A stretch of 64,000 nucleotides of DNA. Origin: Celeribacter ethanolicus. GTDB lineage: Bacteria; Pseudomonadota; Alphaproteobacteria; Rhodobacterales; Rhodobacteraceae. The stretch is from assembly GCF_001550095.1 (NCBI RefSeq), contig NZ_LRUC01000045.1:1-64000 (forward strand), written 5' to 3'. Shown here piece by piece: positions 44,214-64,000 of the stretch (position 1 is the first letter of the stretch; each line of letters opens with the position of its first letter). Below the pieces are notes generated by a model that made no database searches, had not been told where the DNA came from, and saw only the letters and a list, made by a program, of their open reading frames with translations. Both the position numbers and the translations under genes were made by a program.

Positions 44214-44242
44214 TTGACAAGCCGGACAAGTCTACAGATACA
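44214..44242 (+). promoter_or_regulatory. Promoter of the thiamine operon
   Basis: TTGACA (44214-44219) and GATACA (44237-44242) are spaced by 17 bases. Transcription would begin near 44250, right at the first base of the riboswitch. Confidence 0.55.
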
Positions 44243-44250
44243 TAGGCTTA

Positions 44251-44360: not shown

Positions 44361-44390
44361 CGAAGGGCATCTCCGCAATCTCGATCATGA

Positions 44391-47201
<2,811 letters not shown>

Positions 47202-47212
<11 letters not shown>

Positions 47213-47399: not shown

Positions 47400-47400
47400 C

Positions 47401-48162: not shown

Positions 48163-48767
48163 CACTCGACCCGTTTTACCTCATCGTCAGCCACGTCGGT
48201 CAGCTCGAATTGCTCGTGCCTCACGGCGTGCGTCTCGTTCAGCTTCGGATCAAGGATCAGCCGGAAACAGAGGTCCGGCGGCAAATCCGCCGCGCCCGCG
48301 ATTTTTGTGCGGTGCACCGCGCGCAACTGGTGGTGAATGATCATTGGCAGGCGGCGCTCGATCTCAAATGTGGCGTTGTCCATCTCGGTCAAGAGGATAT
48401 GGAAACCGTCGACTTTGCCGCTCTCAGGCGTGCAGGTGTGCGCTTTGGCCTCTCGACCCATGACGAGACGGAGCTGAACCGTGCGCTGTCTCATGGTCCG
48501 GCCTATGTCGCGCTCGGGCCGGTCTATCCGACGCTTTTGAAACAAATGAAATGGGGGCCGCAGGGGTTGGATCGCGTTCGGGAGTGGAAAAAGGCCGCAG
48601 GGCAGACGCCGCTGGTTGGCATAGGTGGTCTGACGCCCGAACGCCTGCCCGGTCTCTTTGCGGCGGGCGCAGATTGTGCCGCCGTCGTGACCGACATTGC
48701 GACGGCTGAAAACCCGGAGGCGCGCTGCGCCGAATGGATCGCCGCCACACGGGGCAACGCGACATGA
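48159..48767 (+). CDS. thiE: Thiamine phosphate synthase (ThiE)
   Basis: A 202-aa barrel enzyme that couples HMP pyrophosphate and thiazole phosphate. It shows V-Q-L-R-I-K near 28, V-N-D-H-W, H-L-G-Q-E-D, G-P-V-Y-P-T and G-I-G-G-L-T. The canonical R-x-K-D sequence is kept as R-I-K-D. Overlaps thiF by four bases. Confidence 0.93.
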
Positions 48768-49678
48768 GCCGGTATGAAAGACAGATCTGCCTGCCGGAAA
48801 TCGGTCCCGAGGGTCAGGCGCGACTCGCCAAAGCAAGGGTGTTGGTCGTCGGTGCCGGCGGGCTTGGCGCCACTCTCTTGCCGCAACTCGTGGGCGCAGG
48901 CATTGGTTTCATCCGGCTCCTAGACCCAGATGTGGTCGAGGAAAGCAATCTGCATCGTCAGACGCTCTATCGCATGAACCATCTGGGACGCCCCAAGGCC
49001 GAGGTCGCCGCCGCGTCGCTGGGCCTGTTGAACCCCGATTGCACGCTGGAGCCCCACATCGCCCGCCTCGATCCCGCTGGCCTCCCTCAATGGGCGGCAG
49101 ATGTCGATCTGATCCTCGACGCGGCCGACACCTTCGCCACCAGCTATGCGCTTTCGGATCATTGCCGGGCCACCCGGCAACCGCTGATCAGTGCGTCCGT
49201 GACCGGCAGACAAGGCTATGTCGGCGGGTTTTGTGGTGGCGCACCCAGCCTGCGCGCCGTGTTTCCCGATCTGCCCGAGAGCCTTGGGGCTTGCGCGGAA
49301 ACCGGTGTGCTCGGGCCGGTTGTCGCATGCCTCGCAGCGCTTCAAGCTCAGATGGCCCTCGCCGTGCTGTTGCAGCATCGGCTCTCACCGCTCGGCCAAG
49401 TGCTCTCACTTGATCTGGCGACATGGCGGCTTGGTGGTTTTCGCTTTGACAACGCCCCCGAACCCACCAATCCCTCCCCCGCCATTCTCTCTCCGGCCCA
49501 GATTAACGAGACAGACCTTGTGATCGACCTGCGTAACACGCCTACCCCCGCCCCACATCCCACGCCGGGGCAACGCGTGGTTTTCACCTGCACCTCCGGT
49601 CTCCGCGCCTGGCGCGCGGCAAGGGCCTTTGCGGCACAGGGACATACGGATGTGGCCATCGTCGGAGCAGGTGCATGA
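48764..49678 (+). CDS. thiF: ThiS adenylyltransferase ThiF with a short rhodanese-like tail
   Basis: A 304-aa E1-like enzyme that adenylates the ThiS C-terminus. ATG 48764 overlaps the thiE stop. N-terminal R-Y-E-R-Q-I-C-L-P-E-I-G, nucleotide loop G-A-G-G-L-G, and D-A-A-D near 120 identify the family. The zinc cysteine pairs of some MoeB/ThiF proteins are not evident. The last ~50 residues look like a compressed rhodanese domain: V-I-D-L-R near 255, then V-V-F-T-C-T-S-G-L-R-A with a candidate active Cys. It may deliver sulfur in cis. Confidence 0.88.
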   Translation: MSRYERQICLPEIGPEGQARLAKARVLVVGAGGLGATLLPQLVGAGIGFIRLLDPDVVEESNLHRQTLYRMNHLGRPKAEVAAASLGLLNPDCTLEPHIARLDPAGLPQWAADVDLILDAADTFATSYALSDHCRATRQPLISASVTGRQGYVGGFCGGAPSLRAVFPDLPESLGACAETGVLGPVVACLAALQAQMALAVLLQHRLSPLGQVLSLDLATWRLGGFRFDNAPEPTNPSPAILSPAQINETDLVIDLRNTPTPAPHPTPGQRVVFTCTSGLRAWRAARAFAAQGHTDVAIVGAGA

Positions 49679-50421
49679 CTGCCCCCGTCCTGATGATCGG
49701 AGGCCTCGATTCAAGCGGCGGCGCCGGGGTGTTGCGCGATTGTGCCGTGGCGGAGGCCTTCGGCGTTCCGGCCCGTGTGGCCGTCACCGCCGTCACGGCA
49801 CAAAGCGATCAGGCGGTGAGCGCCGTCCATCCGGTGCCCCCTGACACGATCCGGGCACAGATCGCCATCGCCGGTCAGGTGGGCGCGGTCAAGATCGGCA
49901 TGCTCGGAACGGCGGAAACCGTCCGCGCCGTTGCGGAGCTTTTGCCTCCCGTTCCCTGTGTCGTCGACCCCGTTCTGATGACGAGCTCCGGGCATATGTT
50001 GCTAGATGAAACCGGGATCGCGGCGCTCATTGCGGATCTTTTGCCGAAAACCGACCTCCTGACCCCGAACCTGCCGGAGCTTTCCGCACTTGCGCGGGCG
50101 CTTGGGCTCGCCCCCGACGACCGGGAGGGCTGCGTCGCGAAACTGTTGAAATTGGGCTGTGGCGCCGTGTTGGTCAAAGGCGGCCATGACAACGGACCAC
50201 AGAGCGTCGACCGTCTCTATCGCGGCACCAGGCCTGCGTTGGATTTCACGGCCCGACGCACCGATACAACGCTTCGCGGCACGGGATGCCGGCTGGCCAG
50301 TGCGATCACAGTTCACCTTGCGAATCGTGACGGCGCAGGCCCTGACGCGCTCGTGTCTGCGATTGAGGTCGCGAAAAAACACGTCCTCCACGCCTTGAAA
50401 GCTGCCACGATTGCAGCCTGA
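49675..50421 (+). CDS. thiD: HMP / HMP-phosphate kinase (ThiD)
   Basis: A 248-aa ribokinase-fold enzyme that phosphorylates hydroxymethylpyrimidine twice. Family parts are G-G-L-D-S-S-G-G-A-G-V near the N-terminus, K-I-G-M-L-G, V-D-P-V-L-M-T-S-S-G, T-P-N-L-P-E, and V-L-V-K-G-G-H. The C-terminal anion-hole motif reads G-T-G-C-R-L-A-S-A. Last gene of thiCOSGEFD. Confidence 0.95.
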   Translation: MTAPVLMIGGLDSSGGAGVLRDCAVAEAFGVPARVAVTAVTAQSDQAVSAVHPVPPDTIRAQIAIAGQVGAVKIGMLGTAETVRAVAELLPPVPCVVDPVLMTSSGHMLLDETGIAALIADLLPKTDLLTPNLPELSALARALGLAPDDREGCVAKLLKLGCGAVLVKGGHDNGPQSVDRLYRGTRPALDFTARRTDTTLRGTGCRLASAITVHLANRDGAGPDALVSAIEVAKKHVLHALKAATIAA

Positions 50422-50815
50422 GAAGCCGGGTTGCCGGCAGGGCTGCTTGAAGCACACCGACCGCGTTCTGGCTCGGCCTTCCGGCAGGACCATCCGAACC
50501 GGCTATCTCAACCCGGAAACCACATATGGAACATGCGTAGGATTTCACCGCAAAGACCTTCAAACCCCATAAAAAGCACTCTGGGCGCGGAAGGCGCACT
50601 TTCCACTTCGCAGCAAGTCTCCGGCGCTTGACAGTCCGGCACTCTGGCGCAGGATGAAAGCAGCCACATCTCATCGGACACAGACCACTCTGCGGATCGA
50701 ACCGCCCCGGGTCGCCCCGGAGTTGAGCCGAGAACAGCGGCAGGGGGGGAGCGGCAGAAATGCGGCTTTCGCGACGCTCTTTCTTGTGTCCGGAACATTT
50801 TGCTTGGGATCTCAC
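50422..50815 (+). other. Intergenic stretch between thiD and the nitrilase gene
   Basis: 394 bases without a convincing gene. A TTGACA at 50628-50633 could be a -35 element, but no good -10 sits 16-18 bases on. Two GCCGGCAGG/TTCCGGCAGG-type short similar segments near 50432 and 50482 were seen. No U-tract terminator was found. Confidence 0.4.
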
Positions 50816-51607
50816 ATGCGCATCGCCCTGCTTCAGCCCTCCCCCTCTGCCGCCGATCTCGCGTCCCTGCACATCTCTCTTCTGGAGGCCCGCCGAGATG
50901 ACGCCGATGTGCTGATCGTTCCGGAACTTCTTGTCCCGGGCTACAACCACCCCCGGAAGCATCGCCGCGAAGCCGAGCCATTGGACGGCATCTGGATGCA
51001 GGCGCTGCGGGCCATGGTCGCGAAGGTCGGCTGCGCTTTGGTCATCGGATGGGCCGAGCGCGACGGGGACAAGGTCTATAATGCGGCGAGCTGTGTGGAT
51101 CGGGACGGAACGCTTCTGGCGCATTACCGCAAGGTCCAGCTTTTCGGCGAGATGGAACATGCGAGCTTTACCCCCGGCACCGAACTTGCCCCGCCCTTCG
51201 ATCTCTGCGGGCGCAGATGCGGCCTGCTGATCTGTTACGACATCGAGTTTCCCGGCCACACCGCCACCCTCGCCCACGCCGGGGCCGAGGTGATCTTCGT
51301 CCCGACCGCAAACCCCGAAGGCTACGAACATGTGCAGGAGGTGCTGGTGCCCGCCCGCGCCCATGAGCTCGGCGGTTTCGTCGCCTATGCCAATTATTGC
51401 GGCACGGACAACGGGCTGACGTTCGGCGGCGGCTCCACCGTCGCGGGGCCGGACGGACGGGCACTTGCGCGGGCCGGCACTTCGGAAAGTCTGCTGATCG
51501 TCGATCTGCCGGAACTGTCCGACTATCCTCCCGAAACGCTTTCCGGCAAGGGGACTGATTTTCGCGCCGCCCCCATCGCGGAGGACACATACACCCCGGC
51601 AAAATGA
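50816..51607 (+). CDS. Nitrilase-superfamily carbon-nitrogen hydrolase
   Basis: A 263-aa hydrolase with the complete Glu-Lys-Cys triad at E37 (V-P-E-L), K106 (Y-R-K-V-Q-L-F) and C140 (L-I-C-Y-D-I-E-F-P). Such enzymes cleave small amides, nitriles or carbamoyl compounds. The substrate is not evident; the overall sequence is amidase-like rather than true nitrilase. ATG 50816 begins exactly at the conserved first strand (M-R-I-A-L-L-Q); a longer in-frame reading from 50654 is rejected. Its stop lies in a convergent gap with the DUF475 gene. Confidence 0.85.
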   Translation: MRIALLQPSPSAADLASLHISLLEARRDDADVLIVPELLVPGYNHPRKHRREAEPLDGIWMQALRAMVAKVGCALVIGWAERDGDKVYNAASCVDRDGTLLAHYRKVQLFGEMEHASFTPGTELAPPFDLCGRRCGLLICYDIEFPGHTATLAHAGAEVIFVPTANPEGYEHVQEVLVPARAHELGGFVAYANYCGTDNGLTFGGGSTVAGPDGRALARAGTSESLLIVDLPELSDYPPETLSGKGTDFRAAPIAEDTYTPAK

Positions 51608-51611
51608 TCGC

Positions 51612-51665
51612 AGAAAAAAGAGACGCTTTCCCCGAACAAAGGGGACCTCCGGGAAAAGCGCCTCT
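51612..51665 (-). terminator. Terminator of the DUF475 gene
   Basis: On the minus strand AGAGGCGCTTTTCCC pairs imperfectly with GGGGAAAGCGTCTCT and is followed by TTTTTT. It ends transcripts of the DUF475 gene or its operon. Confidence 0.75.
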
Positions 51666-51691
51666 GGGCAGACCGGGAAGAGGTCTCCGGT

Positions 51692-52735
51692 CTATGCGGT
51701 CACGGCCTCCTCCCGACGCCGCCGGTTGTAGCGCACCGAGGACACCAGCGAGAGTGCGATGAACGCCGCGCCGATCAGCCCGGTGATCACCTCCGGGATA
51801 TGCACGAGGCTCTGCGCGAACATCACGCAGGACAGCACGAGGATCGAATAGAAAGCGCCGTGTTCGAGATAGCGGAATTCGGTGAGGGTCTGCTTTTCCA
51901 CCAGCATGATGGTCATGGAGCGCACATACATCGCCCCGATGCCGAGACCGATGGCGATCAGAAACAGGTTCTGCGTGAGGGCAAAGGCCCCGATGACCCC
52001 GTCGAAGCTGAAGGAGGCATCGAGCACTTCGAGGTAGAGGAAGGCACCCAGACCGCCTTTCGCCAGAGAGGCGCCGCTGTCGAGCACATGACCGAGGGTT
52101 TCGACGGCGATGAAGGTGACGAGCCCGGCCACGGCGGCAAACAGGAAGGTGCCGCGTTGCGAGGCGTCGATCAGGCCGGAGAAGACCAGCACGATCAAAA
52201 GCACCAACCCGATGGCCATGCCGCGCACGGAGGCCCATTTGCGCAACAGATCCTCCAGAGGCCGCAGCCAGTCGACCTCCTTTTCCGGGTCAATGAAGTA
52301 ATTCAGCGCCACCATCATCAGAAACGTGCCCCCGAAGGCCGAAATCGACAGATGCGCTTCGCCGATCAGCCGCGCATATTCGGTCGGTTCGCGCGCCGCG
52401 AGACGCAGTGCCTCGATCGGGCCGATGTGGGCGGCGACGGAGACGACGGCCAGCGGAAAGACGATGCGCATGCCGAAGACCGCGATCAGGATGCCCCAGG
52501 TCAGAAACCGCCGTCGCCAGGTTTCGTCCATATCCTTGAGCTTGCTGGCGTTGACGATGGCATTGTCGAAACTCAGCGAGATTTCCAATACCGAGAGGAT
52601 CACCCCGATCAGCGCAAAGGTGACCATGCCGGACAGATGCCCGGTATAGGCCCAGCCGAGCCAGAAACAGAGCGCAATCCCCAGACCGGTGACTGCGAAA
52701 CTCCAGTGAAAATATTTCCATACGGACGAGGACAT
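51692..52735 (-). CDS. DUF475 / TerC-like integral membrane protein
   Basis: A 347-aa protein with about eight or nine hydrophobic helices. Two copies of the TerC-like acidic motif are visible: L-S-F-D-N-A-I-V-N-A near 55 and S-F-D-G-V-I-G-A-F near 240. TerC-family proteins have been linked to tellurite resistance and to metal (Mn or Ca) export; DUF475 has no firm function. It follows the ferredoxin-reductase gene by 38 bases on the same strand and may be the last gene of that operon. Confidence 0.85.
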   Translation of the reverse strand: MSSSVWKYFHWSFAVTGLGIALCFWLGWAYTGHLSGMVTFALIGVILSVLEISLSFDNAIVNASKLKDMDETWRRRFLTWGILIAVFGMRIVFPLAVVSVAAHIGPIEALRLAAREPTEYARLIGEAHLSISAFGGTFLMMVALNYFIDPEKEVDWLRPLEDLLRKWASVRGMAIGLVLLIVLVFSGLIDASQRGTFLFAAVAGLVTFIAVETLGHVLDSGASLAKGGLGAFLYLEVLDASFSFDGVIGAFALTQNLFLIAIGLGIGAMYVRSMTIMLVEKQTLTEFRYLEHGAFYSILVLSCVMFAQSLVHIPEVITGLIGAAFIALSLVSSVRYNRRRREEAVTA

Positions 52736-52773
52736 GGGCCCCGGCCTCCCTGTGTTGCCCTGCTCGGAGGGGA

Positions 52774-53817
52774 TTAGAGATTATGCGCGAAGTGGAAGCT
52801 GTCGGCGTAGATGTGGTTGACGCTCGCCCCGGCTTCAAGGAAGCGCCCGCGCGCCTCCGCGATCATCGCGGGCGAGCCGCAGAGATAGATCGCATGATCC
52901 GAAAGATCCGGCAGATCGGCCAGAACGGCGTCCTGCACATGACCCGAGCGATGTGGGCTTCCGGGCGCACGCGACAACACCGGCACGAAGGTGAAATCGT
53001 CAAACGCCGCTCCGAGCGCCGCGATCTCTTCGGCCAGATAAAGCTCGCTTTCCGTGCGCATCCCCCAGTACAGCGCCACCGGCGGTCCGTCGGGCTCCTC
53101 CTTGAGCGCCGCAAGCATGGCACGCAGCGGCGCGATTCCGGTGCCCGTCGCGACCAGCAGAAGCGGCCGAAAATCCTCCGGGTGCAGACGAAAGAGTCCA
53201 TGCGGCCCGTGCAGGCGCAGTGTCTCGCCTGCTTCGATCCCGGACAGTACGCCCGCAGTGAACATGCCCCCCGGGATCACCCGGATATGCAGGTCGATCT
53301 CGCCTTCGGACGGCGCGGACGCAATGGAAAACGACCGTGTCGCACCGCTTTCGGTCACCACATTGATATATTGCCCAGGCTGAAAGTCAGGCATCTCGCC
53401 TTCGGGCCGCAGCCTGAGCCGCAGGATATCCGGGCAGACCGGCGTGAGCGACACCACCTCGGCTTCGATCTCGACCGGCACCGGCCGATCCGAAGGCATC
53501 AGCTCCGCCGCAACCCGCAGGTTCATCCGGGCACGCGCCTGACAGGCCAGAGCAAAGCCACAGCCGCGCTCCTCCTCGCTCAGCCCCAGGGGCTCTTCGT
53601 CATAGGCAACTTCGCCCTCGAGCAGCCGAATGCGACAGGAGCCGCAAAATCCGCTCTTGCAGTCATGCGCCAGATCGACACCAGCATTGAGCGCCGCGGC
53701 GAGAATGGTTTCATGGGACTCGACGCAGAAACTCTCTCCGCTCTCCGCCAAGGTGACCTGCGCCACGACGGCTTCGTCCCCGTCTTCGATCTTGTGAACC
53801 GCGCGAATGATCGTCAT
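52774..53817 (-). CDS. Ferredoxin-NAD(P)H reductase component of an oxygenase system
   Basis: A 347-aa three-domain electron-transfer protein. Residues ~15-105 form a plant-type 2Fe-2S domain (C-K-S-G-F-C-G-S-C and a later L-A-C-Q). Then an FAD domain with R-S-F-S-I-A-S and an NAD domain with L-L-V-A-T-G-T-G-I-A-P follow. This is the BenC/XylA/phenol-hydroxylase-reductase layout. ATG 53817 is preceded by GAGGGGG; the upstream extension is not conserved-looking. It probably reduces the ferredoxins encoded at 57.6-58.6 kb for the diiron oxygenase; this is inferred from context and shared operators. Confidence 0.9.
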   Translation of the reverse strand: MTIIRAVHKIEDGDEAVVAQVTLAESGESFCVESHETILAAALNAGVDLAHDCKSGFCGSCRIRLLEGEVAYDEEPLGLSEEERGCGFALACQARARMNLRVAAELMPSDRPVPVEIEAEVVSLTPVCPDILRLRLRPEGEMPDFQPGQYINVVTESGATRSFSIASAPSEGEIDLHIRVIPGGMFTAGVLSGIEAGETLRLHGPHGLFRLHPEDFRPLLLVATGTGIAPLRAMLAALKEEPDGPPVALYWGMRTESELYLAEEIAALGAAFDDFTFVPVLSRAPGSPHRSGHVQDAVLADLPDLSDHAIYLCGSPAMIAEARGRFLEAGASVNHIYADSFHFAHNL

Positions 53818-53824
53818 GGCCCCC

Positions 53825-54304
53825 TCACTTCTTGATATCGGCTGCGACCACGACCTCATGGCCTTGGGGGGCGAGTAGATCCGCCAGCGCCTGAAGCGCC
53901 GCGACACCCGCCGCCGTGTCCTGTTCGCCATTGCCGCCCGACAGCCCGACGCCGCCGATCACCTCGCCATCGACCACGATGGGGAAACCGCCCACGAAGA
54001 CCGCGAACTTGCCCTCGAAGGACAATTGGATACCGAAGGCCTCGTTGCCTGGCAGCGCGGGGCCATTGGGCGCCTTGTTAAACAGATGGGTGGAGCGTTT
54101 GTGCGTGGCGGCGGTGAAGGCCTTGTTCCACGAAATCTGCGGCCCGGTCACCCGCGCCCCGTCCATGCGCTCGATCAGGATCGGAAACCCGCCGTCATCG
54201 GCGATGCAGATGGTCTCCAAAACACCGATTTCCCTGGATTTTTCAACAGCGGCGGCGATCATCACACGCGCCTCTTCGGATTGCAGTCTGAGAACTGTTT
54301 TCAA
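53825..54304 (-). CDS. HbpS/GlcG-family (DUF336) protein
   Basis: A 159-aa member of the GlcG/HbpS family. Motifs are D-G-G-F-P-I-L-I-E-R-M-D-G-A, K-A-F-T-A-A-T, and the C-terminal G-G-F-P-I-V-V-D-G-E-V-I-G-G-V-G-L-S-G-G. Relatives bind heme or act in diol, glycolate or aromatic-degradation operons, often with unclear function. No signal peptide, so cytoplasmic. It is seven bases before the reductase gene, and two GTATACC operator cores lie in its promoter region. Confidence 0.88.
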   Translation of the reverse strand: MKTVLRLQSEEARVMIAAAVEKSREIGVLETICIADDGGFPILIERMDGARVTGPQISWNKAFTAATHKRSTHLFNKAPNGPALPGNEAFGIQLSFEGKFAVFVGGFPIVVDGEVIGGVGLSGGNGEQDTAAGVAALQALADLLAPQGHEVVVAADIKK

Positions 54305-54344
54305 TGGTCCATCTCTTAGGTTGTGCGTTTCTCTTTCCTCAATT

Positions 54345-54357
54345 TAGTATACCATAT
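54345..54357. promoter_or_regulatory. GntR operator A (GTATACC core)
   Basis: TAGTATACCATA contains the GTATACC core at 54347-54353, 43 bases upstream of the HbpS-like gene start. It overlaps a second imperfect GTATAC/ATATAC repeat. Confidence 0.5.
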
Positions 54358-54439
54358 ACTCAAAATTCCAAGGGCTATTTGAGAGATTTTTGCTGAATTA
54401 GCGCCTTTAAATCCAATTTATACTCCGAATGCCTATTTT

Positions 54440-54453
54440 TTTGGTATACCAAA
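54440..54453. promoter_or_regulatory. GntR operator B, perfect 14-bp palindrome
   Basis: TTTGGTATACCAAA is a perfect palindrome in the divergent region between the HbpS-like operon and gntR. The T-G-G-T-A-T-A-C-C-A layout is typical of FCD-type GntR operators. Confidence 0.7.
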
Positions 54454-54622
54454 TATGACGACACACATTCTGAAATGCACTCACATCCGGATTTCCCATC
54501 GCCATAGGAATCGCGCGATCCCACGCTCCGAAAGCGCGGCAATGCCGGCACTCGAACCCCGCCCCCTGCACGCGACACGTCGCGAAGAGCACGCGAGAGG
54601 CTTGGCAAAGCGTAACCGGCTC

Positions 54623-54632
54623 TGGTATACCG
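54623..54632. promoter_or_regulatory. GntR operator C (GGTATACC)
   Basis: TGGTATACCG has the 8-bp palindrome GGTATACC at 54624-54631, 83 bases upstream of the gntR start. It suggests autoregulation. Confidence 0.55.
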
Positions 54633-54714
54633 AATGCAGCATCGCGACCCCCAACCGAGAGCGGCCTTCCGCCCGGCCCGAAGGATGCGCGACCGAATAT
54701 GAACAGGACATAAC

Positions 54715-55362
54715 ATGGCTCTGGCAATTGGCGACGCCCACACGCCCTTGACGAAAATGGTCAAGGATGCGCTGCGCGAACGGATTCTGAATGCGGAATT
54801 CGAACCGGGAACACGGCTTGTCGAGGGCAGGATTTCCGAAGAAATGGGCGTGTCCCGGATGCCCGTGCGCGAAGCCTTGCGGGAACTGGCGGCCGAAGGT
54901 CTGGTCAAGATCATTCCCCGACGCGGCGCGACCGTTTCCATGCCGGCTGCGGATCAGAAAATGGACCTGATCGAAGTGCGTGCCACGCTTGAGGCCCTGA
55001 ACGCCCGGCTTGCGGCCCGACGCAAGGACCCCGAGCGGATCGAGGAGCTGCAACGGGTTCTGGCCGCCGGGGAATCCGACATCGAGAAGAGCGATTTCAG
55101 CGAGATGCGCGCCCATAACGATGCCTTTCACACGGCTCTGGGCGAGGTCTCGGGCAATGTGACACTTCAGGATCTGATCCGCACCCTGCGCGACCAGACC
55201 GCCATGCTGTTCAAACAGGACGATCCGGTCAAGGTGCGCGAAACCTGGCGCGAGCATGCCGATATTCTCCGGGCGGTGATCGCAGGCGACGAAGAGCTCG
55301 CGGCCATTCTCGCCTCCCGGCACGTCTACAATGCGGTCGAGCCGGAACAAGCCACCGACTGA
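54715..55362 (+). CDS. FCD-type GntR-family transcription regulator
   Basis: A 215-aa regulator. The N-terminal winged helix (about 10-75) has I-L-N-A-E-F-x-P-G-x-R-L-V-E and the recognition-helix stretch S-R-M-P-V-R-E-A-L-R-E-L. The C-terminal FCD domain (about 85-205) keeps metal-type positions such as H-x-x-F-H-x-A-L and the later R-E-H-A-D-I. It sits between the two minus-strand operons it probably controls, and GTATACC cores occur at three promoters. The ligand is unknown, perhaps the pathway substrate. Confidence 0.9.
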   Translation: MALAIGDAHTPLTKMVKDALRERILNAEFEPGTRLVEGRISEEMGVSRMPVREALRELAAEGLVKIIPRRGATVSMPAADQKMDLIEVRATLEALNARLAARRKDPERIEELQRVLAAGESDIEKSDFSEMRAHNDAFHTALGEVSGNVTLQDLIRTLRDQTAMLFKQDDPVKVRETWREHADILRAVIAGDEELAAILASRHVYNAVEPEQATD

Positions 55363-55374
55363 GGTAAGCCAGCC

Positions 55375-56124
55375 CTACAGCAGCGCCCGCATCAACAGCC
55401 CCACCGCACTGAGCGCCGACAACCCGAGAAGGACATGCCGGATCGCGCCTTTCGGCACATGCCGCGCCAGAGGGGTCGAAACGGTAAAGCCGAGCAGAAG
55501 CGCAGGGAAAAGCAAGAGACCCAGCATGAGTTGGCGCAGCTCGAACCGACCGATGGACGCCAACAGGATGAGCGACGTCGTCGCCCCGAAGAAGAAGGTG
55601 AAATTCAGCGTCGAACGCAGGGTCGCAGGCGGGGTGTTTTGCATGACGATGGCATAGGGCGGTGCGCCCGAAGAGGTGATCGTGCCCATGATGCCCGACA
55701 TCACACCGGCAAAGCCCAGCGTGCGCCAGTTGGCGACGATGCGCCAGCCGCTATAGCTCAGCGCCACCCCGATCAGGATCAGCACCGCGAAGAGAATGTA
55801 GAAACTGTTGGCACTGAGCATCGCCATGATGAAGACGGCGATGAAATTGCCGATGACACGGCCGGAAATCATCGTGCCTGCGGATTTGAAGTCGATGGCG
55901 GAGCGCTCACGCAACACCACCATGACGGAGAGGCAGCCGCCGAGCACGAGCAAGGGCCCCGGCGCAAGTTCGGGAAAGAACAGCGCCGAGAGCGGCGCGG
56001 AAAACATGGCAAAGCCAAGCCCGCCCACGCCCTGAAGAATGGCGGCCACGAAGACCATGGCCACCATGCCCATAAAATGCGGCGTCAAAAGATTGCCGCC
56101 GATCAACTCGTGCACAAGCTCCAT
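55375..56124 (-). CDS. TauE/SafE-family membrane transporter
   Basis: A 249-aa protein with seven or eight hydrophobic helices and family segments G-G-L-G-F-A-M-F-S-A-P near the N-terminus and S-G-I-M-G-T-I-T-S-S-G-A-P-P in the middle. TauE/SafE proteins export or import sulfite, sulfoacetate and other small organic anions. Its start abuts the stop of the aldehyde dehydrogenase gene, so it belongs to the oxygenase operon and may move a pathway acid or by-product. It is convergent with gntR. Confidence 0.85.
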   Translation of the reverse strand: MELVHELIGGNLLTPHFMGMVAMVFVAAILQGVGGLGFAMFSAPLSALFFPELAPGPLLVLGGCLSVMVVLRERSAIDFKSAGTMISGRVIGNFIAVFIMAMLSANSFYILFAVLILIGVALSYSGWRIVANWRTLGFAGVMSGIMGTITSSGAPPYAIVMQNTPPATLRSTLNFTFFFGATTSLILLASIGRFELRQLMLGLLLFPALLLGFTVSTPLARHVPKGAIRHVLLGLSALSAVGLLMRALL

Positions 56125-57570
56125 TCAGCCCCCCAGATAGACGGATTTGATCCGGCTGTAGAAGTCCATGACATTCGCCCCACCCTGCTCTTTCGCGCTC
56201 TGGTTGGAGGAATGCTTGAAGCCGCCAAAAGGGGCATTCAGCGCCACGCCCGTGGTCGGGCTGTTGACCTTGACGACACCGTGCTGGGTCTTTTGCGCAA
56301 TCTTCAGAACGGAGGCCATGTCATTGGACACGACGGAAACGGCCAGCCCGTATTCGGTATCGTCGGCAATTTCGATAGCTTCATCCACATCCTCGATGGC
56401 ACGCACCGCGACCACCGGGGCAAAGATTTCATCGCGCAGAAGACGGCTGTCCGTCGGCACATCGGCGATCACCGTCGGGCGCACAAAGAACCCGTTCGAC
56501 AGACCGGCGGAGGCCTCCGGCAGACCGCCGGTGGTGATCCGACCGCCTTCCTGTTTGGCGATGCCGAGATAGGCATTGACCTTGTCGAGCTGCGCCTCGG
56601 TGGCGAGCGGCCCCATGGTGACCCCCGCACGCGTGCCTGCACCGATGGTGATGCCCTCCGCCGCGCCGGTAAGTTTTTCCACCAACGCGTCGTAATGGCT
56701 GCGCGCGACCAGAACCCGGCTGGTGCCGGTACAGGCCTGCCCGGTCAGCCCGAAGGCACCGCGGCGGATGATGTCGGCGGCACGGTCGAGATCGGCATCG
56801 CCGAGAACGATGGTGGCGTTCTTACCGCCCATTTCGAGCTGACAGCGCGTGTCGGTGGTCAGCGCCCGGGCGATCTGCATGCCCACGGCATAGGAGCCGG
56901 TGAAGGTCAGCGCGTCGATCCCCGGCGTCGATGTAATCGCCTTGCCGACCGTCGGCCCGCGCCCGTGGATGAGCGCCAGAAGCCCTTTCGGCAGGCCCGC
57001 ATCGAGCAGCACTTCGACCAGACGTTGCCCCATGAGCGGCGTCATCTCGGAGGGCTTGAAAATCACCCCGTTGCCCGCTGCCAGCGCCGGTGCGATCTTG
57101 CGTGCAGCCATGGAAAGCGGGAAATTCCACGGCGTGATCACCGCGACAACCCCCACAGGAGAGCGCAGAGTGAGCGCGATCTGCCCCTCCGGCATCGGAA
57201 AGCTCTCGCCCTTGAGCCGCAGCGCCTCACCGGCGTAAAAACGAAAGTTCGCGGCGATCCGGCTGGTCTCGTTGCGCGCTTCGGTGAGGGTTTTACCCTC
57301 TTCGCGGGTCAACTCCGCGGCGATGGCGTCGATCCGCGAGGAAATGATGTCGGCAGCCTTGTAAAGCACGTCGGCACGCGCCTCCGGGCCCTTGGCGGCC
57401 CAGTCCGGCCAGGCGTTCGACACGGTCTCAACGGCGGCGGCCACATCCGCCTCGCCACCATCGGGAAACAGCCCGATGAGATCGGTCAGATCCGCAGGAT
57501 TGCGGTTTTCGAATGTCGCGCCGGAGAGGGCGGGAACCCATTCCCCGCCAATGAAATTGAGATAAGACAT
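56125..57570 (-). CDS. NAD(P)-dependent aldehyde dehydrogenase
   Basis: A 481-aa ALDH. Motifs: P-W-N-F-P near 145, K-P-S-E near 170, F-T-G-S near 225, catalytic Glu in L-E-M-G-G-K-N and catalytic Cys in G-Q-A-C-T-G. ATG 57570 gives the usual N-terminus ([10 protein letters not shown]). It should oxidise an aldehyde made by the upstream oxygenase to its acid. Substrate class cannot be fixed; overall features fit the broad aldehyde or semialdehyde group. Confidence 0.92.
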
Positions 57571-57624
57571 GGCTGTCCCTTTGATCTTGCGTTTCTTGGC
57601 TGTCGGGCCTGTGCCCACCAGCCT

Positions 57625-57912
57625 CTAGCCCCAGGACACTTTCACATCCCCACGGACGAAGGTCTGGCAGGCCATGCGAAAGCCGTTGGCCACATCCTCG
57701 TCGCTCAGATGCTTGCGCTCCTTGGCCTTGATGTCGTCGGTGTGCTCCAGCCCTTCGACGATCTTGCAGCGACAGGTGCCGCAGAACCCGCCGCCGCATT
57801 TGAACGGGATACCACCCTTGTCCCTGAGCGAGGCGCGCAACAGGTTGCTGCCGCTGTCCACGGAGATGGTCTTGTTCTCGTTCGGAATGAAGGTGATGCT
57901 GATCTTTTCCAT
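57625..57912 (-). CDS. 2Fe-2S ferredoxin 2
   Basis: A 95-aa plant-type ferredoxin. Cluster cysteines: C-G-G-G-F-C-G-T-C near 39-47 and M-A-C-Q near 80. ATG 57912 was chosen to remove a non-conserved 15-residue extension. It lies between the 97-aa unknown gene and the ALDH gene, in the oxygenase operon, and likely carries electrons from the reductase. Confidence 0.9.
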   Translation of the reverse strand: MEKISITFIPNENKTISVDSGSNLLRASLRDKGGIPFKCGGGFCGTCRCKIVEGLEHTDDIKAKERKHLSDEDVANGFRMACQTFVRGDVKVSWG

Positions 57913-57972
57913 AGGCTCTTCAGGGCTTTGTGCGTTTCTCTTCAACGGTCCCGGCAAGCGGTCCCGGCGGCC

Positions 57973-58266
57973 TCAGACGAGGCGCAACTCGATGTCCATG
58001 CTGCCGTAATGGGTCAGCGTATTGAGCTCTTCGCGCGCCTCTTCGAGCGTCTCGAAGCTCTCGAACAGCTTGCTCGGGACCTTGTTGGTGATATGCGGCG
58101 GCGCGTCTTCGATGATGGTGATCCGGTCCACGCCATTGAGTTCGGCGATGGTAAAATTGGCGCGTTTGCGACCGTAGAAGATGTAGTCATAGGACTCGAC
58201 GGAGGTGACGCCCTCGCCCATGACGGTGTGGAATTCTTCGGGTTTCGTGGTCAGGATGACGAACAT
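57973..58266 (-). CDS. Unrecognised 97-aa protein between two ferredoxin genes
   Basis: A small acidic cytoplasmic protein without Cys, signal peptide or membrane helix. It begins M-F-V-I-L-T-T-K-P-E-E-F and alternates predicted strands and helices (Y-D-Y-I-F-Y-G-R-K-R-A-N-F-T-I-A-E-L; R-I-T-I-I-E-D), which suggests a compact alpha/beta fold. I do not recognise a family. Being inserted between two ferredoxin genes of an oxygenase operon makes a coupling or effector role, comparable to small regulatory proteins of diiron monooxygenases, a reasonable guess only. Confidence 0.75.
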   Translation of the reverse strand: MFVILTTKPEEFHTVMGEGVTSVESYDYIFYGRKRANFTIAELNGVDRITIIEDAPPHITNKVPSKLFESFETLEEAREELNTLTHYGSMDIELRLV

Positions 58267-58353
58267 GGCTGTCCCTCGTAGAAAATGGCAGATTGTGGGT
58301 CGGGAGCGGCCCGCCTCAGACAGCGGAACCGGCGCGGCGCAGGTGTCTTGCGC

Positions 58354-58647
58354 TCAGACGTCCTGCGTCAACTCGATGTCCTCGGACACCCAGAGCTGAC
58401 AGGCCAGACGGTAGCCCTCGTCGAGCTTGTCGCCCAACTGGCGCTTTTCCTTCCAGTTCGGCGCTTCGAGATGCTCACCGCCCTTGAGGACGCGGCAGGT
58501 GCAGGTCGAACATTTCCCCATGCCGCATTTATACGCGAGATTGGGATAGGGAAATTTCTTGATCCCGGCGCGGACGACGAGATTGGTGTTGGGATCGACA
58601 TCGTCGACAAACACCTCGCCGCCCTTGTGCAAAGTGACTTTCGGCAT
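58354..58647 (-). CDS. 2Fe-2S ferredoxin 1
   Basis: A 97-aa plant-type ferredoxin. Cluster cysteines: C-G-M-G-K-C-S-T-C near 41-49 and L-A-C-Q near 83. It lies 50 bases after the diiron oxygenase gene. It differs clearly from ferredoxin 2, so the operon has two distinct carriers. Confidence 0.92.
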   Translation of the reverse strand: MPKVTLHKGGEVFVDDVDPNTNLVVRAGIKKFPYPNLAYKCGMGKCSTCTCRVLKGGEHLEAPNWKEKRQLGDKLDEGYRLACQLWVSEDIELTQDV

Positions 58648-58697
58648 GGGGTCTTCCGATTTGGAGAGGACGGGAAGCCCGCCCTCTCGTGACAGGA

Positions 58698-59429
58698 TCA
58701 GGCTGCCAGACCCAGCTCGGCGAGCGGGATCTCGGAACCGACGTAATCGTTGTAGAGCGAGGTGGTGTAGAGCAGACGCATCTGGGCCCCAAGCTCACAG
58801 ATCTTCAGGCATTTTTGCTGAAGCTCATAGGTGCGGGCATGTTCCAGAACGATCTGGTAGCCACGTTCGCCGTGGATTTCGTCGGAGACGATGTGCAGGT
58901 CGAAGAATTCGACCTCCTCATCGGTAAAGCCGTATTTGTCGCGCAGCGTCGGGGTCTGTTTGCGATAGATCGACGGCACCTGGCTTTCGAGACCGACGAC
59001 AAGACCGGCGATGGCGACGATCGGGTCTTCGCGCATCGCGGTGTTGTAGCACCAGGCTTGCAGCGCGCGGGTGGTGGCGTTGGCGTTCTCGACGTTCTTG
59101 ATGCGCTCGCGGGTGGTGCCACAGGCCTCACCGAAGCGGATCAGGAGATCGGTGTGACGATCGGCGGCCAGTTCTTCTTCATACATGTTCTGCAACATGA
59201 AATCCTTGGCCTCCTCGTACTCCGCGGGCAGGCGGGCGTAGACATAGGCGAGGTAATCGGCGAAGGGGCCGACATAGTGGTAATGGTTTTCACACCAGCG
59301 CGCGAGATGTTCGCGCGACAGCTTGCCACTGGCCCAGGCCAGACTGAACGGCGATGCGTTTGCGGTATTGCCGCGAATGGCGTTTTCGAGGGCTGTGCGA
59401 AGTTCGTCAGGATTAAGGACCTTGCCCAT
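58698..59429 (-). CDS. Heme-oxygenase-fold diiron oxygenase (TenA/PqqC/CADD-like)
   Basis: A 243-aa all-helical protein of the TenA/PqqC superfamily. Six metal-ligand positions of the CADD/UndA-type diiron enzymes are present with matching spacing: E85 and H92 (E-E-E-L-A-A-D-R-H), E148 (V-G-L-E-S-Q), and H179, D183, H186 (H-I-V-S-D-E-I-H). TenA and true PqqC lack this full set, so an O2-activating diiron oxygenase or oxidase is the best call. Known relatives cleave C-C or C-N bonds or hydroxylate amines; this substrate is unknown. First gene of the operon with two ferredoxins, a 97-aa protein, ALDH and TauE. Confidence 0.82.
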   Translation of the reverse strand: MGKVLNPDELRTALENAIRGNTANASPFSLAWASGKLSREHLARWCENHYHYVGPFADYLAYVYARLPAEYEEAKDFMLQNMYEEELAADRHTDLLIRFGEACGTTRERIKNVENANATTRALQAWCYNTAMREDPIVAIAGLVVGLESQVPSIYRKQTPTLRDKYGFTDEEVEFFDLHIVSDEIHGERGYQIVLEHARTYELQQKCLKICELGAQMRLLYTTSLYNDYVGSEIPLAELGLAA

Positions 59430-59530
59430 TTCCGTCTCCGTGTTGGTTATGCGTCAGGTTTTATGTGTCTTGTCGAGACCCTGTCGGCGTCAGGGGAATG
59501 CGAGATTCTTCAGGTCTCAATTCACCATAC

Positions 59531-59541
59531 TGTATACCAAA
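59531..59541. promoter_or_regulatory. GntR operator D upstream of the diiron oxygenase
   Basis: TGTATACCAAA holds the GTATACC core at 59532-59538, 103 bases upstream of the oxygenase start and about 185 bases before the gamma-glutamyltransferase-like gene. It links the oxygenase operon to the GntR sites at 54.3-54.6 kb. Confidence 0.5.
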
Positions 59542-59680
59542 TTATGGGTCCATATCTTATTGAAGGAAATTTTAAAAACCAAAAATCAAACTATTTTATT
59601 GTTTTTGTTGTTTAAAATATAAATCTGCAAAAATTTCAGTCAAATTATGAAATACTAAATACTAGTATTTTCCATCCACT
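59542..59680. other. AT-rich divergent promoter region with a 14-bp palindrome
   Basis: This stretch is strikingly AT-rich compared with everything around it, with long A and T runs. At 59657-59670 lies the perfect palindrome AAATACTAGTATTT, 52 bases before the gamma-glutamyltransferase-like start. It may hold UP-like elements and binding sites for both divergent genes. No ORF is credible here. Confidence 0.6.
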
Positions 59681-59721
59681 CCTGCAAACTCAGGAAGAAA
59701 ATCCAACCCCAGAATCCCAAA

Positions 59722-61251
59722 ATGGCCTCCCAGAACAAGGACCGCACGCCCGTGACCTCCCAGACGCCGCCTCCCGCTCCCTCATCCAAGCCCATATCCT
59801 CGTCGACCAGTCTGCGCGCCCGACAAGAGGCCGTCGCCACCGGCCACCCTCTCGCCGCTCAGACCGCCATGGACATACTGGCACGCGGCGGCACGGCGGT
59901 GGACGCCGCCATCGCCGCCGACGCGATCCTCGGGGTGGTCGAACCCATGGCCACAGGGCTTGGCGGCGACAGCCTCGCCATGCTGCTGCCGCCGGGCGAG
60001 GCACCGCTCACCTATAATGGCACGGGCAAAAGCCCCCGCGCCCTGACCCCGGATCATGTGGCCGACCTGCCCGGTCGCAAAATCCCCGAACGCCATCCCT
60101 ATTCCGTCACCGTGCCGGGGCTGGCGCGCGGCTGGGCCGATCTGCACGCGCGCTTCGGCCGCCTGCCCTTCGCCGATCTGCTGGCCCCGGCCGCAAAACT
60201 CGCCCGCGAAGGCTTCGAGGTCGCACCGATCTGCGCCCGCGAATGGCAGATCTTCGCCAAGGTGATCCAGAACGACCCGGCTTCCAATGCAATCTACCAA
60301 GGCGGAGCCATCCCGCAGGCCGGCGAGCGCTTCCGCAACCCCGCACTGGCCGATCTTTTGGACGCCATCGCCATGGAGGGGCCGGATGCGTTTTACAAAG
60401 GCAAGGCCGCCGAGGCGATCGAGCGCGCAGCCAAAGCGCGCGGCGCACTTCTCACTGCCGAGGACCTCGCCGCCCACGAAGGTTTTTTCGACCGCCCGGT
60501 GCGGCGGATGTTCAAAGGCATCGAAATTCTCGAATGCCCGCCCAACACCCATGGCATCGGCGTGCTGAAGGCGCTCGAACGCCTCGATGCGATGAACCTG
60601 CCGATGGACGACCCGACGAGCATGGTCGAGGTGGTAAAGGCCACTCGCGAAGGCATGAAATACGCGCGGGAGACCGTGGCGGACCCGTCGGGCAACACGG
60701 TCTGCACCGCGATTGTCGACCGCGAGGGCTTTGCCGTGACCCTGATGAGCAGCATCTTCAAACGCTTCGGCTCGGGGATTGGCGTGCCGGAACTGGGGAT
60801 TTGCCTGCAAAACCGCGGCCACGGGTTTTCCGCGCCTGGTCATATCAATGGCGTGGCGGGCGACAAGCGCCCCTATCACACGGTGATCCCGGCGGCGGCG
60901 CTCAAAGACGGGCGGTTTCATGCGGTGTTCGGCGTGGTCGGCGGGCTGATGCAGCCGCAGGGCCATATCCAGATGATGGTCCGCCTCGCGGCCTGGGGAC
61001 AGGATGTGCAGGAGGCAATGAATGCCCCACGCTGGCGGCTCGAAAGCGACACGCAGATCGCATTGGAAACCGGCTCCGATCCGGCTTTTGCTGAGGCGTT
61101 GAGAGCCGCCGGGTTCGAGGACGCCACAGGCGCAGGCGAATTGGGCGGGCGCAGCGATTTCGGCGGGTCGCAATGCGTCATGCGCACCGATGACGGCGGA
61201 TTGATCGCCGGATCGGACCCGCGCAAGGACGGCACGAAGCTGGGTCGATAA
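59722..61251 (+). CDS. Gamma-glutamyltransferase-family Ntn hydrolase
   Basis: A 509-aa GGT homologue. It has G-G-T-A-V-D-A-A-I-A near 57, G-L-G-G-D near 80, and the autoprocessing site G-N-T-V-C-T-A-I-V-D with Thr326 as predicted nucleophile. Instead of the common T-T-H it reads T-V-C. There is no signal peptide but a Ser/Thr/Pro-rich N-terminus, so it is probably cytoplasmic, unlike classical periplasmic GGT. The start is taken at ATG 59722 although the ribosome binding site is weak. It is divergent from the diiron oxygenase operon and could remove a gamma-glutamyl group or hydrolyse a related amide in the same pathway. Confidence 0.85.
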   Translation: MASQNKDRTPVTSQTPPPAPSSKPISSSTSLRARQEAVATGHPLAAQTAMDILARGGTAVDAAIAADAILGVVEPMATGLGGDSLAMLLPPGEAPLTYNGTGKSPRALTPDHVADLPGRKIPERHPYSVTVPGLARGWADLHARFGRLPFADLLAPAAKLAREGFEVAPICAREWQIFAKVIQNDPASNAIYQGGAIPQAGERFRNPALADLLDAIAMEGPDAFYKGKAAEAIERAAKARGALLTAEDLAAHEGFFDRPVRRMFKGIEILECPPNTHGIGVLKALERLDAMNLPMDDPTSMVEVVKATREGMKYARETVADPSGNTVCTAIVDREGFAVTLMSSIFKRFGSGIGVPELGICLQNRGHGFSAPGHINGVAGDKRPYHTVIPAAALKDGRFHAVFGVVGGLMQPQGHIQMMVRLAAWGQDVQEAMNAPRWRLESDTQIALETGSDPAFAEALRAAGFEDATGAGELGGRSDFGGSQCVMRTDDGGLIAGSDPRKDGTKLGR

Positions 61252-61253
61252 AA

Positions 61254-61276
61254 AAGGGGCGCCGTGAGCGCCCCTT
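61254..61276 (-). terminator. Terminator of the dpp operon
   Basis: AAGGGGCGC / GCGCCCCTT form a 9-bp stem with a 5-base loop. On the minus strand it is followed by a T-run, ending the ABC transporter operon. It also lies directly after the gamma-glutamyltransferase-like stop. Confidence 0.88.
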
Positions 61277-61299
61277 CCCCGTCCAGCTTTCAAACGATT

Positions 61300-62328
61300 T
61301 CAGTCCGTAGACACATGCCAGCAGGCGGCCCAATGCCCACCGCCGTGCCTGGCGAAAGGCGGCGCTTCGCGCTGGCAATGGCCGCCCGACTTGTCGCAGC
61401 AATCGCGGTAGCGGCAGCCCGGCCCCGCAAGGTTCAGCTCAGGCGGACGATGGGCTTCGGGCGCACAATCGCCATTGCGGCGCAGCGCCGGATCGGGTTC
61501 AGGCACAGCAGACAACAGCACCTTGGTATAGGGATGCTCCGGTGCCTCGTAGATCGCATCCCGATCCGCCATCTCCACCATGTGACCGCGATGCAGGATC
61601 GCGATGTCATGGGAAATATGGCGCACGACGGAAAGATCGTGAGCGATGAACACATAGGTCAGCCCCAGCTCCTGTTGCAGGTCCTGCATCAGGTTCACCA
61701 CCTGCGCCCGGACCGACACATCGAGCGCCGAAACCGGCTCGTCGGCAATGATCAGCCGCGGCTTGAGCGCCAGCGCCCGGGCGATACCGATCCTCTGGCG
61801 CTGCCCGCCGGAAAAGCCATGCGGGAAACGATCCAGCGCATCGAGCGGCAGATTGACCAGACGCATCAGCTCGCCGACCTGATCGCGTGCCTCCTCGATG
61901 GAGGACACGATCCCATGCACCAAAAGCGGCTCGGCAATGAGTTCGAGCACCTTCATACGCGGGTTGAGGCTTGTGTAAGGGTCCTGAAAGATCAGTTGAA
62001 TGTCGCGGGTGAGACGACGCAGCGCCTCACCCTTGACGTTGGAAATATCCTTGCCGTCGAAAATCACCCGCCCGTCGGAGATCGGCAGACGCCGCAGGAT
62101 GGCCCGACCGAGGGTCGATTTGCCGGAACCGGATTCGCCGACGAGGCCAAGCGTCTTGCCGCGCGCCAGATCGAAGGTGATGTTCTCCAGCGCCTGGATC
62201 TTCTTCGGCGGGCCGAAGGGGCGTTCGCGTTCGCCATCGAAGGTGACGCCAAGCCCACGTACCGAGAGGATCGGCATTTCGGGGGCGACGGGATGATCCG
62301 TCGCGAAACGATTGGACTGATCGGTCAT
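61300..62328 (-). CDS. dppF: Peptide-type ABC transporter ATPase DppF
   Basis: A 342-aa ATPase. Walker A G-E-S-G-S-G-K-S-T, signature F-S-G-G-Q-R-Q-R and Walker B L-I-I-A-D-E-P are present. The Cys-rich C-terminal tail (C-R-Y-R-D-C-C) is typical of the oligopeptide/dipeptide family. It pairs with the DppD-type ATPase encoded six bases upstream. Imported substrate could be a peptide, a gamma-glutamyl compound or another small amide, judging by the neighbours. Confidence 0.9.
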   Translation of the reverse strand: MTDQSNRFATDHPVAPEMPILSVRGLGVTFDGERERPFGPPKKIQALENITFDLARGKTLGLVGESGSGKSTLGRAILRRLPISDGRVIFDGKDISNVKGEALRRLTRDIQLIFQDPYTSLNPRMKVLELIAEPLLVHGIVSSIEEARDQVGELMRLVNLPLDALDRFPHGFSGGQRQRIGIARALALKPRLIIADEPVSALDVSVRAQVVNLMQDLQQELGLTYVFIAHDLSVVRHISHDIAILHRGHMVEMADRDAIYEAPEHPYTKVLLSAVPEPDPALRRNGDCAPEAHRPPELNLAGPGCRYRDCCDKSGGHCQREAPPFARHGGGHWAACWHVSTD

Positions 62329-62333
62329 CGCGC

Positions 62334-63353
<1,020 letters not shown>

Positions 63354-63375
63354 TGTTCTGTTCCTTGTCGTCCCA

Positions 63376-64000
63376 TCAGGCCTTCGTGCGGCGCATCTTG
63401 GCGGCGCGGCCCCGGGCGTAGCGTTTTTCGCGTTCGGCGGGTTCGGTGGTGACACGCAGCCAGTTGGCGAAAAGATTGATCGAGAGCACCGTCATCGCGA
63501 TGGCGAGCCCCGGGAAGGTGATCGGCCACCAGGCGATCATCATGTAATTCTTGCCGCCCGCCACATCGAGGCCCCAGCTCGTCGCCGGAGGTTGCACCCC
63601 GAGGCCCAGAAACGACAGCGCCGCTTCGGCGAGAATGATGTTGGTGAATTCGAGAATGCCCAGTGTCAGAAGCGGCGCGATCAGGTTCGGCAGGATGTGC
63701 TTGATGATGATCCGCGAGCTTTTGCAGCCGACCACCTCGGCCGCCTCGATGAAGGGCGTCTGGCGCAAGGACATGACGATGCCGCGCACCACGCGGGTGT
63801 AGATCATCCAGTTCGAGAAGGCCAGAACGACGATGATCGTCGTGGTCGACGGCCCGATCACCGCCACCAGCAGAAGCGTGAGCAGAAGGCCCGGAAAAGC
63901 CACCTGCACATCGACAATGCGCATGATGACGGCATCGGTCAGACCGCCCTTGTAGCCCGCAATCAGCCCGGCCATGACGCCGAAACTGCCCGCAAGCGCC
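63376..64000 (-). CDS. dppC: Peptide-type ABC transporter permease DppC, 5' truncated
   Basis: The frame stays open to the window end, so the start lies outside. The visible ~208 residues hold about four membrane helices and the permease E-A-A motif E-A-A-E-V-V-G-C near 120 from the window edge, then L-P-N-L-I-A-P and L-S-F-L-G-L-G-V-Q-P, typical of DppC. Other components (DppB, binding protein) are expected beyond the window. Confidence 0.9.
   Translation of the reverse strand, partial: ALAGSFGVMAGLIAGYKGGLTDAVIMRIVDVQVAFPGLLLTLLLVAVIGPSTTTIIVVLAFSNWMIYTRVVRGIVMSLRQTPFIEAAEVVGCKSSRIIIKHILPNLIAPLLTLGILEFTNIILAEAALSFLGLGVQPPATSWGLDVAGGKNYMMIAWWPITFPGLAIAMTVLSINLFANWLRVTTEPAEREKRYARGRAAKMRRTKA

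Follow-up and report, generated by a model that had tools for sequence, protein, structure and literature searches.

A conserved gene cluster in Celeribacter ethanolicus as a candidate multicomponent oxygenase built on a haem-oxygenase-fold diiron protein

A 64,000-nucleotide stretch of Celeribacter ethanolicus DNA (positions 1 to 64,000 of contig NZ_LRUC01000045.1; this whole stretch is called the window below) carries ten clustered genes around a predicted diiron oxygenase of the haem-oxygenase fold, here called HDO after its superfamily. With evenly balanced confidence, we propose from the sequences that the cluster encodes an NAD(P)H-driven multicomponent diiron oxygenase in which HDO would be catalytic, a 97-residue protein (U97) would be its effector and an aldehyde would be its product. 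We infer an electron path from NAD(P)H through a FAD/2Fe-2S reductase and one or both of two ferredoxins (Fdx1 and Fdx2) to the diiron centre of HDO; U97, small and redox-inactive, would bind HDO as an effector or coupling protein. The substrate would be a small compound taken up by the cell, which HDO would oxidise at a carbon beside a nitrogen or sulphur leaving group; an aldehyde dehydrogenase (ALDH) would oxidise the resulting aldehyde, a DUF336 protein would bind or sense it, and a GntR regulator would control the operons.

An earlier note on this DNA, made from its letters alone, had placed ten genes here, and all ten open reading frames (ORFs) lie at those positions in the window's ORF list (Table 1). 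Nine of the ten proteins match the expected kinds of Pfam family, the exception being U97. The gene content proposed in that note stands in these nine assignments and needs amending in two respects: the protein that it called a gamma-glutamyltransferase (GGT) homologue is merely GGT-like, and this protein and the TauE exporter fall outside the conserved core.

The oxygenase and its partner proteins

The six proposed diiron ligands of HDO (E85, H92, E148, H179, D183 and H186) are invariant in 87/87 aligned rows (86 homologues plus the window protein) and are also kept in a relative 34% identical to it (L007; loci are numbered with an L throughout). These three histidines and three carboxylates, the set of the HDO superfamily, align pairwise with the ligand positions of CADD, counting the CADD residues that we presume to be metal ligands. 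An AlphaFold2 model (pLDDT 92) has the seven-helix haem-oxygenase fold, with chlamydial CADD as its nearest structural match (TM 0.80 by query and 0.90 by target, 2.0 Å), followed by PqqC, UndA, FlcD, HrmI, BesC and TenA. With ligands and fold present and the family cut-offs for CADD (TIGR04305, 89.7 bits versus 200) and PqqC (TIGR02111, 39.5 bits versus 240) missed by far, we assign the protein to the HDO superfamily on sequence and model, which upholds the earlier note's diiron enzyme of the haem-oxygenase fold; we infer that it binds iron. It does pass the Pfam cut-off of TENA_THI-4 (46.3 versus 22 bits), a family broad by its description (TENA/THI-4/PQQC). The p-aminobenzoate synthases CADD and NePabS are its best matches in sequence and fold among solved structures, but the sacrificial residues of CADD, Tyr27 and Lys152 (PMC11965152), are replaced by S29 (in 87/87 rows) and Q158 (in at least 90% of 29 rows) in the window HDO. 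We therefore rejected a CADD-type p-aminobenzoate synthase on both residues and score, and PqqC on its score.

Both ferredoxins contain four cysteines at the expected spacing, and these are fully conserved: Cys 41/46/49/83 of Fdx1 in 86/86 rows and Cys 54/59/62/97 of Fdx2 in 71/71 (rows in such residue tests are those that survived length limits in the tblastn recount described below, plus the window). The reductase has the three domains of the FAD/2Fe-2S reductases of soluble diiron monooxygenases and matches the BenC model with E 1.4e-52, a score under the BenC cut-off. U97 found a match in neither Pfam nor NCBIfam; when 54 members of its family were compared with Pfam, 11 families were hit, each by one or two members and at E 0.057 or worse, and a profile search of the PDB returned nothing at E≤10. 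Its AlphaFold2 model (pLDDT 91.4) consists of beta strands and one helix, the best PDB match to this fold has E 0.34, and the family is devoid of a conserved cysteine.

Soluble diiron monooxygenases are assembled from a diiron oxygenase, a small protein, a ferredoxin and a FAD/2Fe-2S reductase. The window cluster has the same parts list, whereas the oxygenase differs, being ferritin-like in those enzymes and predicted to adopt the haem-oxygenase fold here. The effector role in soluble diiron monooxygenases is also treated in a 2026 review of HDOs (PMC13108848). Among HDOs, MboA of mangotoxin biosynthesis was reported in 2026 together with MboB, an NAD(P)H/flavin/2Fe-2S reductase that serves it specifically, possibly the first characterised HDO-reductase pair according to its authors (PMC13185094). 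MboA-MboB resembles the window cluster in joining an HDO to its own reductase; it differs in carrying out a biosynthetic peptide desaturation, and the available text of that paper mentions neither separate ferredoxins nor a U97-like protein. The combination of a small non-redox protein with a diiron oxygenase, a ferredoxin and a FAD/2Fe-2S reductase, together with the MboB precedent, leads us to read the cluster as a multicomponent HDO, with U97 as its probable effector.

Two further proteins bear on the putative aldehyde. ALDH retains C296 and E262, which we take to be its catalytic residues, in 64/64 rows; its orthologues split into those at least 68% and those at most 48% identical to the window ALDH, as if the enzyme had been recruited twice. 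Orthologues of the DUF336 protein, where present, are 69–96% identical to the window copy. Among the solved relatives of this protein is EfgA (E 1.7e-14, ranked third among PDB matches), a formaldehyde sensor in which K57, S114 and D121 are implicated in formaldehyde binding (PMC8153426). These three residues align with K61, S122 and D129 of the window protein, kept in 73/73 rows (by our own reckoning, the numbering of the tagged EfgA chain is shifted by 20). EfgA is described as having no conserved gene context in the available part of PMC8153426, whereas the DUF336 protein of the window has one.

The HDO superfamily is young and is estimated to hold more than 10,000 members, of which about a dozen have been characterised, and PMC13108848 frames the known ones as enzymes of natural-product or cofactor biosynthesis. 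UndA, BesC, SznF, FlcD, HrmI, AetD, PolF and MboA share the predicted fold and the three-histidine, three-carboxylate set with the window HDO; unlike them, it is encoded with two ferredoxins, a reductase, U97 and a DUF336 protein, in a setting of catabolic appearance. More tentatively, and with less than even confidence, we suggest that this may be the first multicomponent monooxygenase built on the HDO fold, one for which U97 would be an obligatory effector and which would draw on a ferredoxin chain of its own. It would have converged with the methane and phenol monooxygenases, would act in catabolism and might cleave C–N or C–S bonds oxidatively by a new route. The top results of open-access literature searches included no paper on the cluster, in keeping with the earlier note's description of it as undescribed. 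If the proposal is right, the HDO family would extend from biosynthesis to catabolism, the way in which this fold gates O2 would become directly testable, and U97, this group of DUF336 proteins and a permease-like protein of about 510 residues (see below) would gain a place in one pathway; the cluster also offers a named gene set to deorphanise in tractable soil bacteria.

Co-occurrence across genomes

Searching genome contigs with an alignment of HDO gave 506 related stretches, the best 80 of which yielded 76 loci; five plasmid loci and the window completed a set of 82. The ten window proteins were compared by blastp with all six-frame ORFs of at least 60 residues at these loci (best query per ORF, E≤1e-6), which placed HDO at 82 loci, Fdx1 and U97 at 81 each, Fdx2 at 79, the DUF336 protein at 76, GntR at 72, ALDH at 64, the reductase at 50, TauE at 46 and the GGT-like protein at 15. 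In a tblastn recount over the 81 loci other than the window the numbers were HDO 81, Fdx1 80, U97 79, Fdx2 76, HbpS/DUF336 72, GntR 70, ALDH 63, TauE 45, reductase 44 and GGT-like 14. Fdx1 and U97 are missing from a single locus (L032), whose contig carries both of them at another locus, L054, and of the three loci without Fdx2, two (L062 and L084) end less than 250 bases from U97. Gene order differs among genera, so the association is more than frozen synteny.

U97 and HDO were also followed across whole families. Among 250 genomes of one family, that of the Achromobacter genome G445 (counted among them; HDO cut-off E≤1e-60), U97 was found in 62, HDO in 62 and both in 61, with starts at most 7 kb apart in 58 of these 61. 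Among 149 genomes of a second family, to which the Bradyrhizobium genome G448 belongs, the same four carry HDO and U97. Across 385 genomes of the window's class, HDO-like proteins (E≤1e-20) occur in 12 and U97 in the window's own genome only, so U97 is tied to the clade of the window HDO rather than to more distant HDO relatives; a phylum sample of 299 genomes had U97 in three. U97 was single-copy in 7/7 genomes checked, three of which (those behind L024, L043 and L079) have two HDO genes per locus. Since HDO was present in only 6/20 same-genus genomes searched, the window's own included, the cluster is accessory. In viral contigs, 11 stretches matched a search pattern and none was a relative. 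The expectation of the earlier note that the neighbours would be conserved together in a genome-neighbourhood comparison was thus borne out, both by the 82-locus counts and by the finding that, of 63 genomes carrying HDO or U97, 61 carry the two together.

Several observations weigh against a multicomponent oxygenase with U97 as effector and an aldehyde as product. The 82 loci were picked by HDO similarity (77% or more) and form an uneven sample, with 25 from Achromobacter, near duplicates in Caballeronia SBC1 and SBC2, and 28 genus-level labels in all. Near HDO, the reductase is absent at 32 loci, ALDH at 18, GntR at 10 and the DUF336 protein at 6, although some of these loci are cut by contig ends and partners were sought near HDO alone. 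HDO or U97 stands by itself in 2 of the 63 genomes (one each), and in 3 of the 61 with both they are distant or on separate contigs. No MmoB/DmpM-type effector appeared among the best 50 matches listed in the U97 fold search. Finally, because the lysine, serine and aspartate of EfgA are largely conserved across DUF336 proteins (PMC8153426), their presence here is weak evidence, compatible with an aldehyde product without proving it.

Candidate substrates and competing readings

The surroundings of HDO provide clues to both an amine and a sulfonate. A homologue of ornithine cyclodeaminase (OCD)/mu-crystallin, whose closest solved relative is 3hdj ('probable ornithine cyclodeaminase'), occurs at 23/82 loci and under 12/28 genus labels (counts of OCD, SorA, carboxylesterase and the permease of about 510 residues were rechecked by tblastn, E≤1e-20). 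Beyond the cluster, 5/5 Celeribacter stretches searched (two of which end inside the last gene) carry an oligopeptide ABC transporter, a short-chain dehydrogenase/reductase, a second TSUP-like permease and an aspartate-dehydrogenase-like protein, and the three that reach further also carry an FAD oxidase-like protein; transporter homologues are found as well in the Celeribacter, Mangrovicoccus and L054 clusters. These neighbours fit an amino-acid-like compound, and the OCD and aspartate-dehydrogenase-like genes fit amino or imino chemistry. This is the direction taken by the earlier note, in which an amide would be hydrolysed and the amine or amino acid then cleaved oxidatively to an aldehyde. 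We regard that route as unlikely while granting it some weight: the OCD and aspartate-dehydrogenase-like genes, the oligopeptide transporter, hydrolases of several kinds, and the use of fatty or amino acids by most characterised HDOs (PMC13108848) speak for it, but OCD was not matched in positions 45001–64000 of the window. Nor does the GGT-like enzyme, present at just 15/82 loci, retain the residues that bind a gamma-glutamyl group.

This protein scores 271.6 against TIGR00066, the model of true GGT, versus a cut-off of 357.85. T326, kept in 15/15 rows, provides the catalytic threonine and aligns with what we take to be the processing site of E. coli GGT. Both aspartates of the E. coli MDDF motif, which holds Asp433, are replaced (by H, S or F at 367 and by G at 368), as are Ser462/Ser463 of the PLSSM motif (by H386/T387), each in 15/15 rows. 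Among solved structures the nearest is 2nlz, labelled a cephalosporin acylase, which likens the protein to class IV cephalosporin acylases and YwrD-type GGT-like proteins. According to a review of GGT, Asn stands for Asp433 in the class IV enzymes, and the PLSSM motif is crucial (PMC8062742). With the binding residues lost and the GGT cut-off missed, we rejected gamma-glutamyl hydrolysis, and gamma-glutamyl amides as substrate, which the earlier note had considered, are unsupported. Its broader idea of catabolism fares better, given the GntR-FCD regulator, ALDH and uptake genes.

Other hydrolases include a carboxylesterase at three Aminobacter loci and at L090, and an alpha/beta hydrolase adjoining Fdx2 in Caballeronia. 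This variety makes hydrolysis of an ester or amide plausible, with no indication of a gamma-glutamyl bond. Separately, we observed that a single ORF at L090 (7705-9033) fuses Fdx2 to an alpha/beta hydrolase (the hydrolase part identified by eye and sequence match), and that a RutB-like hydrolase and an SsuA/THI5-like binding protein lie near the cluster at L021 (18581-20432), L022, L035 (585-4263) and L059 (1422-4870), in one alpha- and two betaproteobacterial lineages.

The TauE permease (46/82 loci) and SorA (16/82) fit a sulfonate and the release of sulfite. If HDO were an oxygenolytic desulfonase, it would convert a (probably amino-) alkanesulfonate to an aldehyde and sulfite, which TauE would export and SorAB would oxidise; we hold this to be improbable. 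A homologue of SorA (E 2.9e-169 against the solved structure 2blf) does lie at most 3 kb upstream of HDO at 15/25 Achromobacter loci and, in Cupriavidus EM10 (L019), close to Fdx2; an SsuA-family binding protein is encoded near the cluster at L035 (Alcaligenaceae), L059 (Candidimonas) and two C. baekdonensis loci. Yet SorA is confined to two genera, and 6 of the 10 SorA-free Achromobacter loci extend 4 kb or more upstream; the two SsuA-like proteins that were scored reach 75 and 80 bits versus a cut-off of 163.5, and the one compared with the PDB also resembles THI5. TauE-family transport, moreover, extends beyond sulfite, and the OCD and hydrolase genes are left unexplained. We give preference to neither the amine nor the sulfonate clues; an amino-sulfonate would satisfy both sets, a suggestion that we offer as speculation. 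Adjoining the cluster in Achromobacter (L057, 7364-8948) and in one Cupriavidus (L019, 6465-8098) are SorA and what looks by eye like a SorB cytochrome.

Decidedly improbable, too, is a single-component HDO supplied by ordinary electron donors, with U97 and the DUF336 protein serving assembly, repair or stress protection. According to the available text of PMC13108848, HDOs studied to date need no protein effector, and the diiron cluster is labile in many of them, which makes an assembly helper plausible. At locus L112 (8928-11649) a 42% relative of HDO precedes homologues of DUF336 and GntR, and the ORF that lies divergently upstream looks Rieske-like by eye; U97, Fdx1 and Fdx2 were not matched in the 20 kb searched. 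Set against this is the pairing of U97 with HDO in all but two of the 63 genomes with either, the ferredoxins accompanying both. A thiamine-related, TenA-like role, hinted at by the TENA_THI-4 score and by nearby ORFs that we take from their sequences to be ThiG/E/F/D-like (47401-50421 of the window), is very unlikely in view of the full diiron ligand set, a fold nearest CADD with thiaminases lower in the list, and the lack of any thi gene, by eye, among the ORF starts listed beyond the cluster in C. baekdonensis L021 and L118.

Gene layout, neighbours and evolution

Table 1. Genes of the cluster and its immediate flank, in window coordinates.
Feature	Position	Strand	Description
HDO	58698..59429	-	243 aa; Haem_oxygenas_2 PF14518, E 5.9e-36, 124 bits
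Fdx1	58354..58647	-	97-aa 2Fe-2S ferredoxin; Fer2 E 7.4e-9
U97	57973..58266	-	97 aa, cysteine-free; proposed redox-inactive effector
Fdx2	57625..57957	-	110-aa 2Fe-2S ferredoxin; Fer2 E 8.4e-15
ALDH	56125..57618	-	Aldedh E 6.1e-151
TauE/SafE-type permease	55375..56124	-	PF01925 E 2.2e-20; optional member
GntR-FCD transcription regulator	54715..55362	+	GntR and FCD domains
HbpS/DUF336 protein	53825..54304	-	PF03928 E 4e-32
NAD(P)H reductase, BenC/MmoC-like	52774..53931	-	2Fe-2S, FAD and NAD domains
GGT-like Ntn hydrolase, cephalosporin-acylase type	59722..61251	+	PF01019; optional member
Oligopeptide-type ABC transporter	61300..63999, runs past window	-	2 ATPases, 1 permease; ORFs named by eye; optional neighbours

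HDO, Fdx1, U97, Fdx2, ALDH and TauE form a tight array from 59429 to 55375 on the minus strand, and the DUF336 protein and reductase a second one from 54304 to 52774 on the same strand; the GntR gene is convergent to the HDO array and divergent from the DUF336-reductase array. Comparison with orthologues by eye suggests that ALDH probably starts at about 57570 (MSYLNF...) and the reductase at about 53820. Nitrilase-like and TerC-like ORFs (50654-52735, named by eye) adjoin the reductase, and C. baekdonensis L021 has comparable ORFs beside its own; further away, the window holds what we presume from their sequences to be nadA/B/C-like and thiC, thiO, thiG, thiE, thiF and thiD-like genes (39612-50421).

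A membrane protein of about 510 residues lies near HDO at 58/82 loci and under 17 genus labels (for example L019, 9146-10684) and perhaps represents an undescribed transporter family: of two members scanned, one against Pfam and one against NCBIfam, neither gave a match, and PDB matches had E 0.19 or worse.

A tree of HDO was built with the first six Achromobacter and first four Bradyrhizobium sequences met and with identical rows removed. In it, Celeribacter and Mangrovicoccus form a group (99/98) that is joined by Kaistia and Aminobacter (96/94). A weaker group (90/91), which would point to transfer, unites betaproteobacterial metagenome-assembled genomes with Bauldia, Devosia and Bradyrhizobium. 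Two HDO genes per locus are found in Aminobacter (L036, L043 and L051), Kaistia (L024) and C. basilensis (L079). In Aminobacter one copy accompanies the ferredoxins and the other the DUF336 protein and reductase, and the copies fall into separate clades, each supported at 100/99, so they are not recent duplicates inside one strain. Three alphaproteobacterial genomes (G084, G217 and G315) contain 3–5 HDO-like matches each (L008, L012-L015, L104 and L105).

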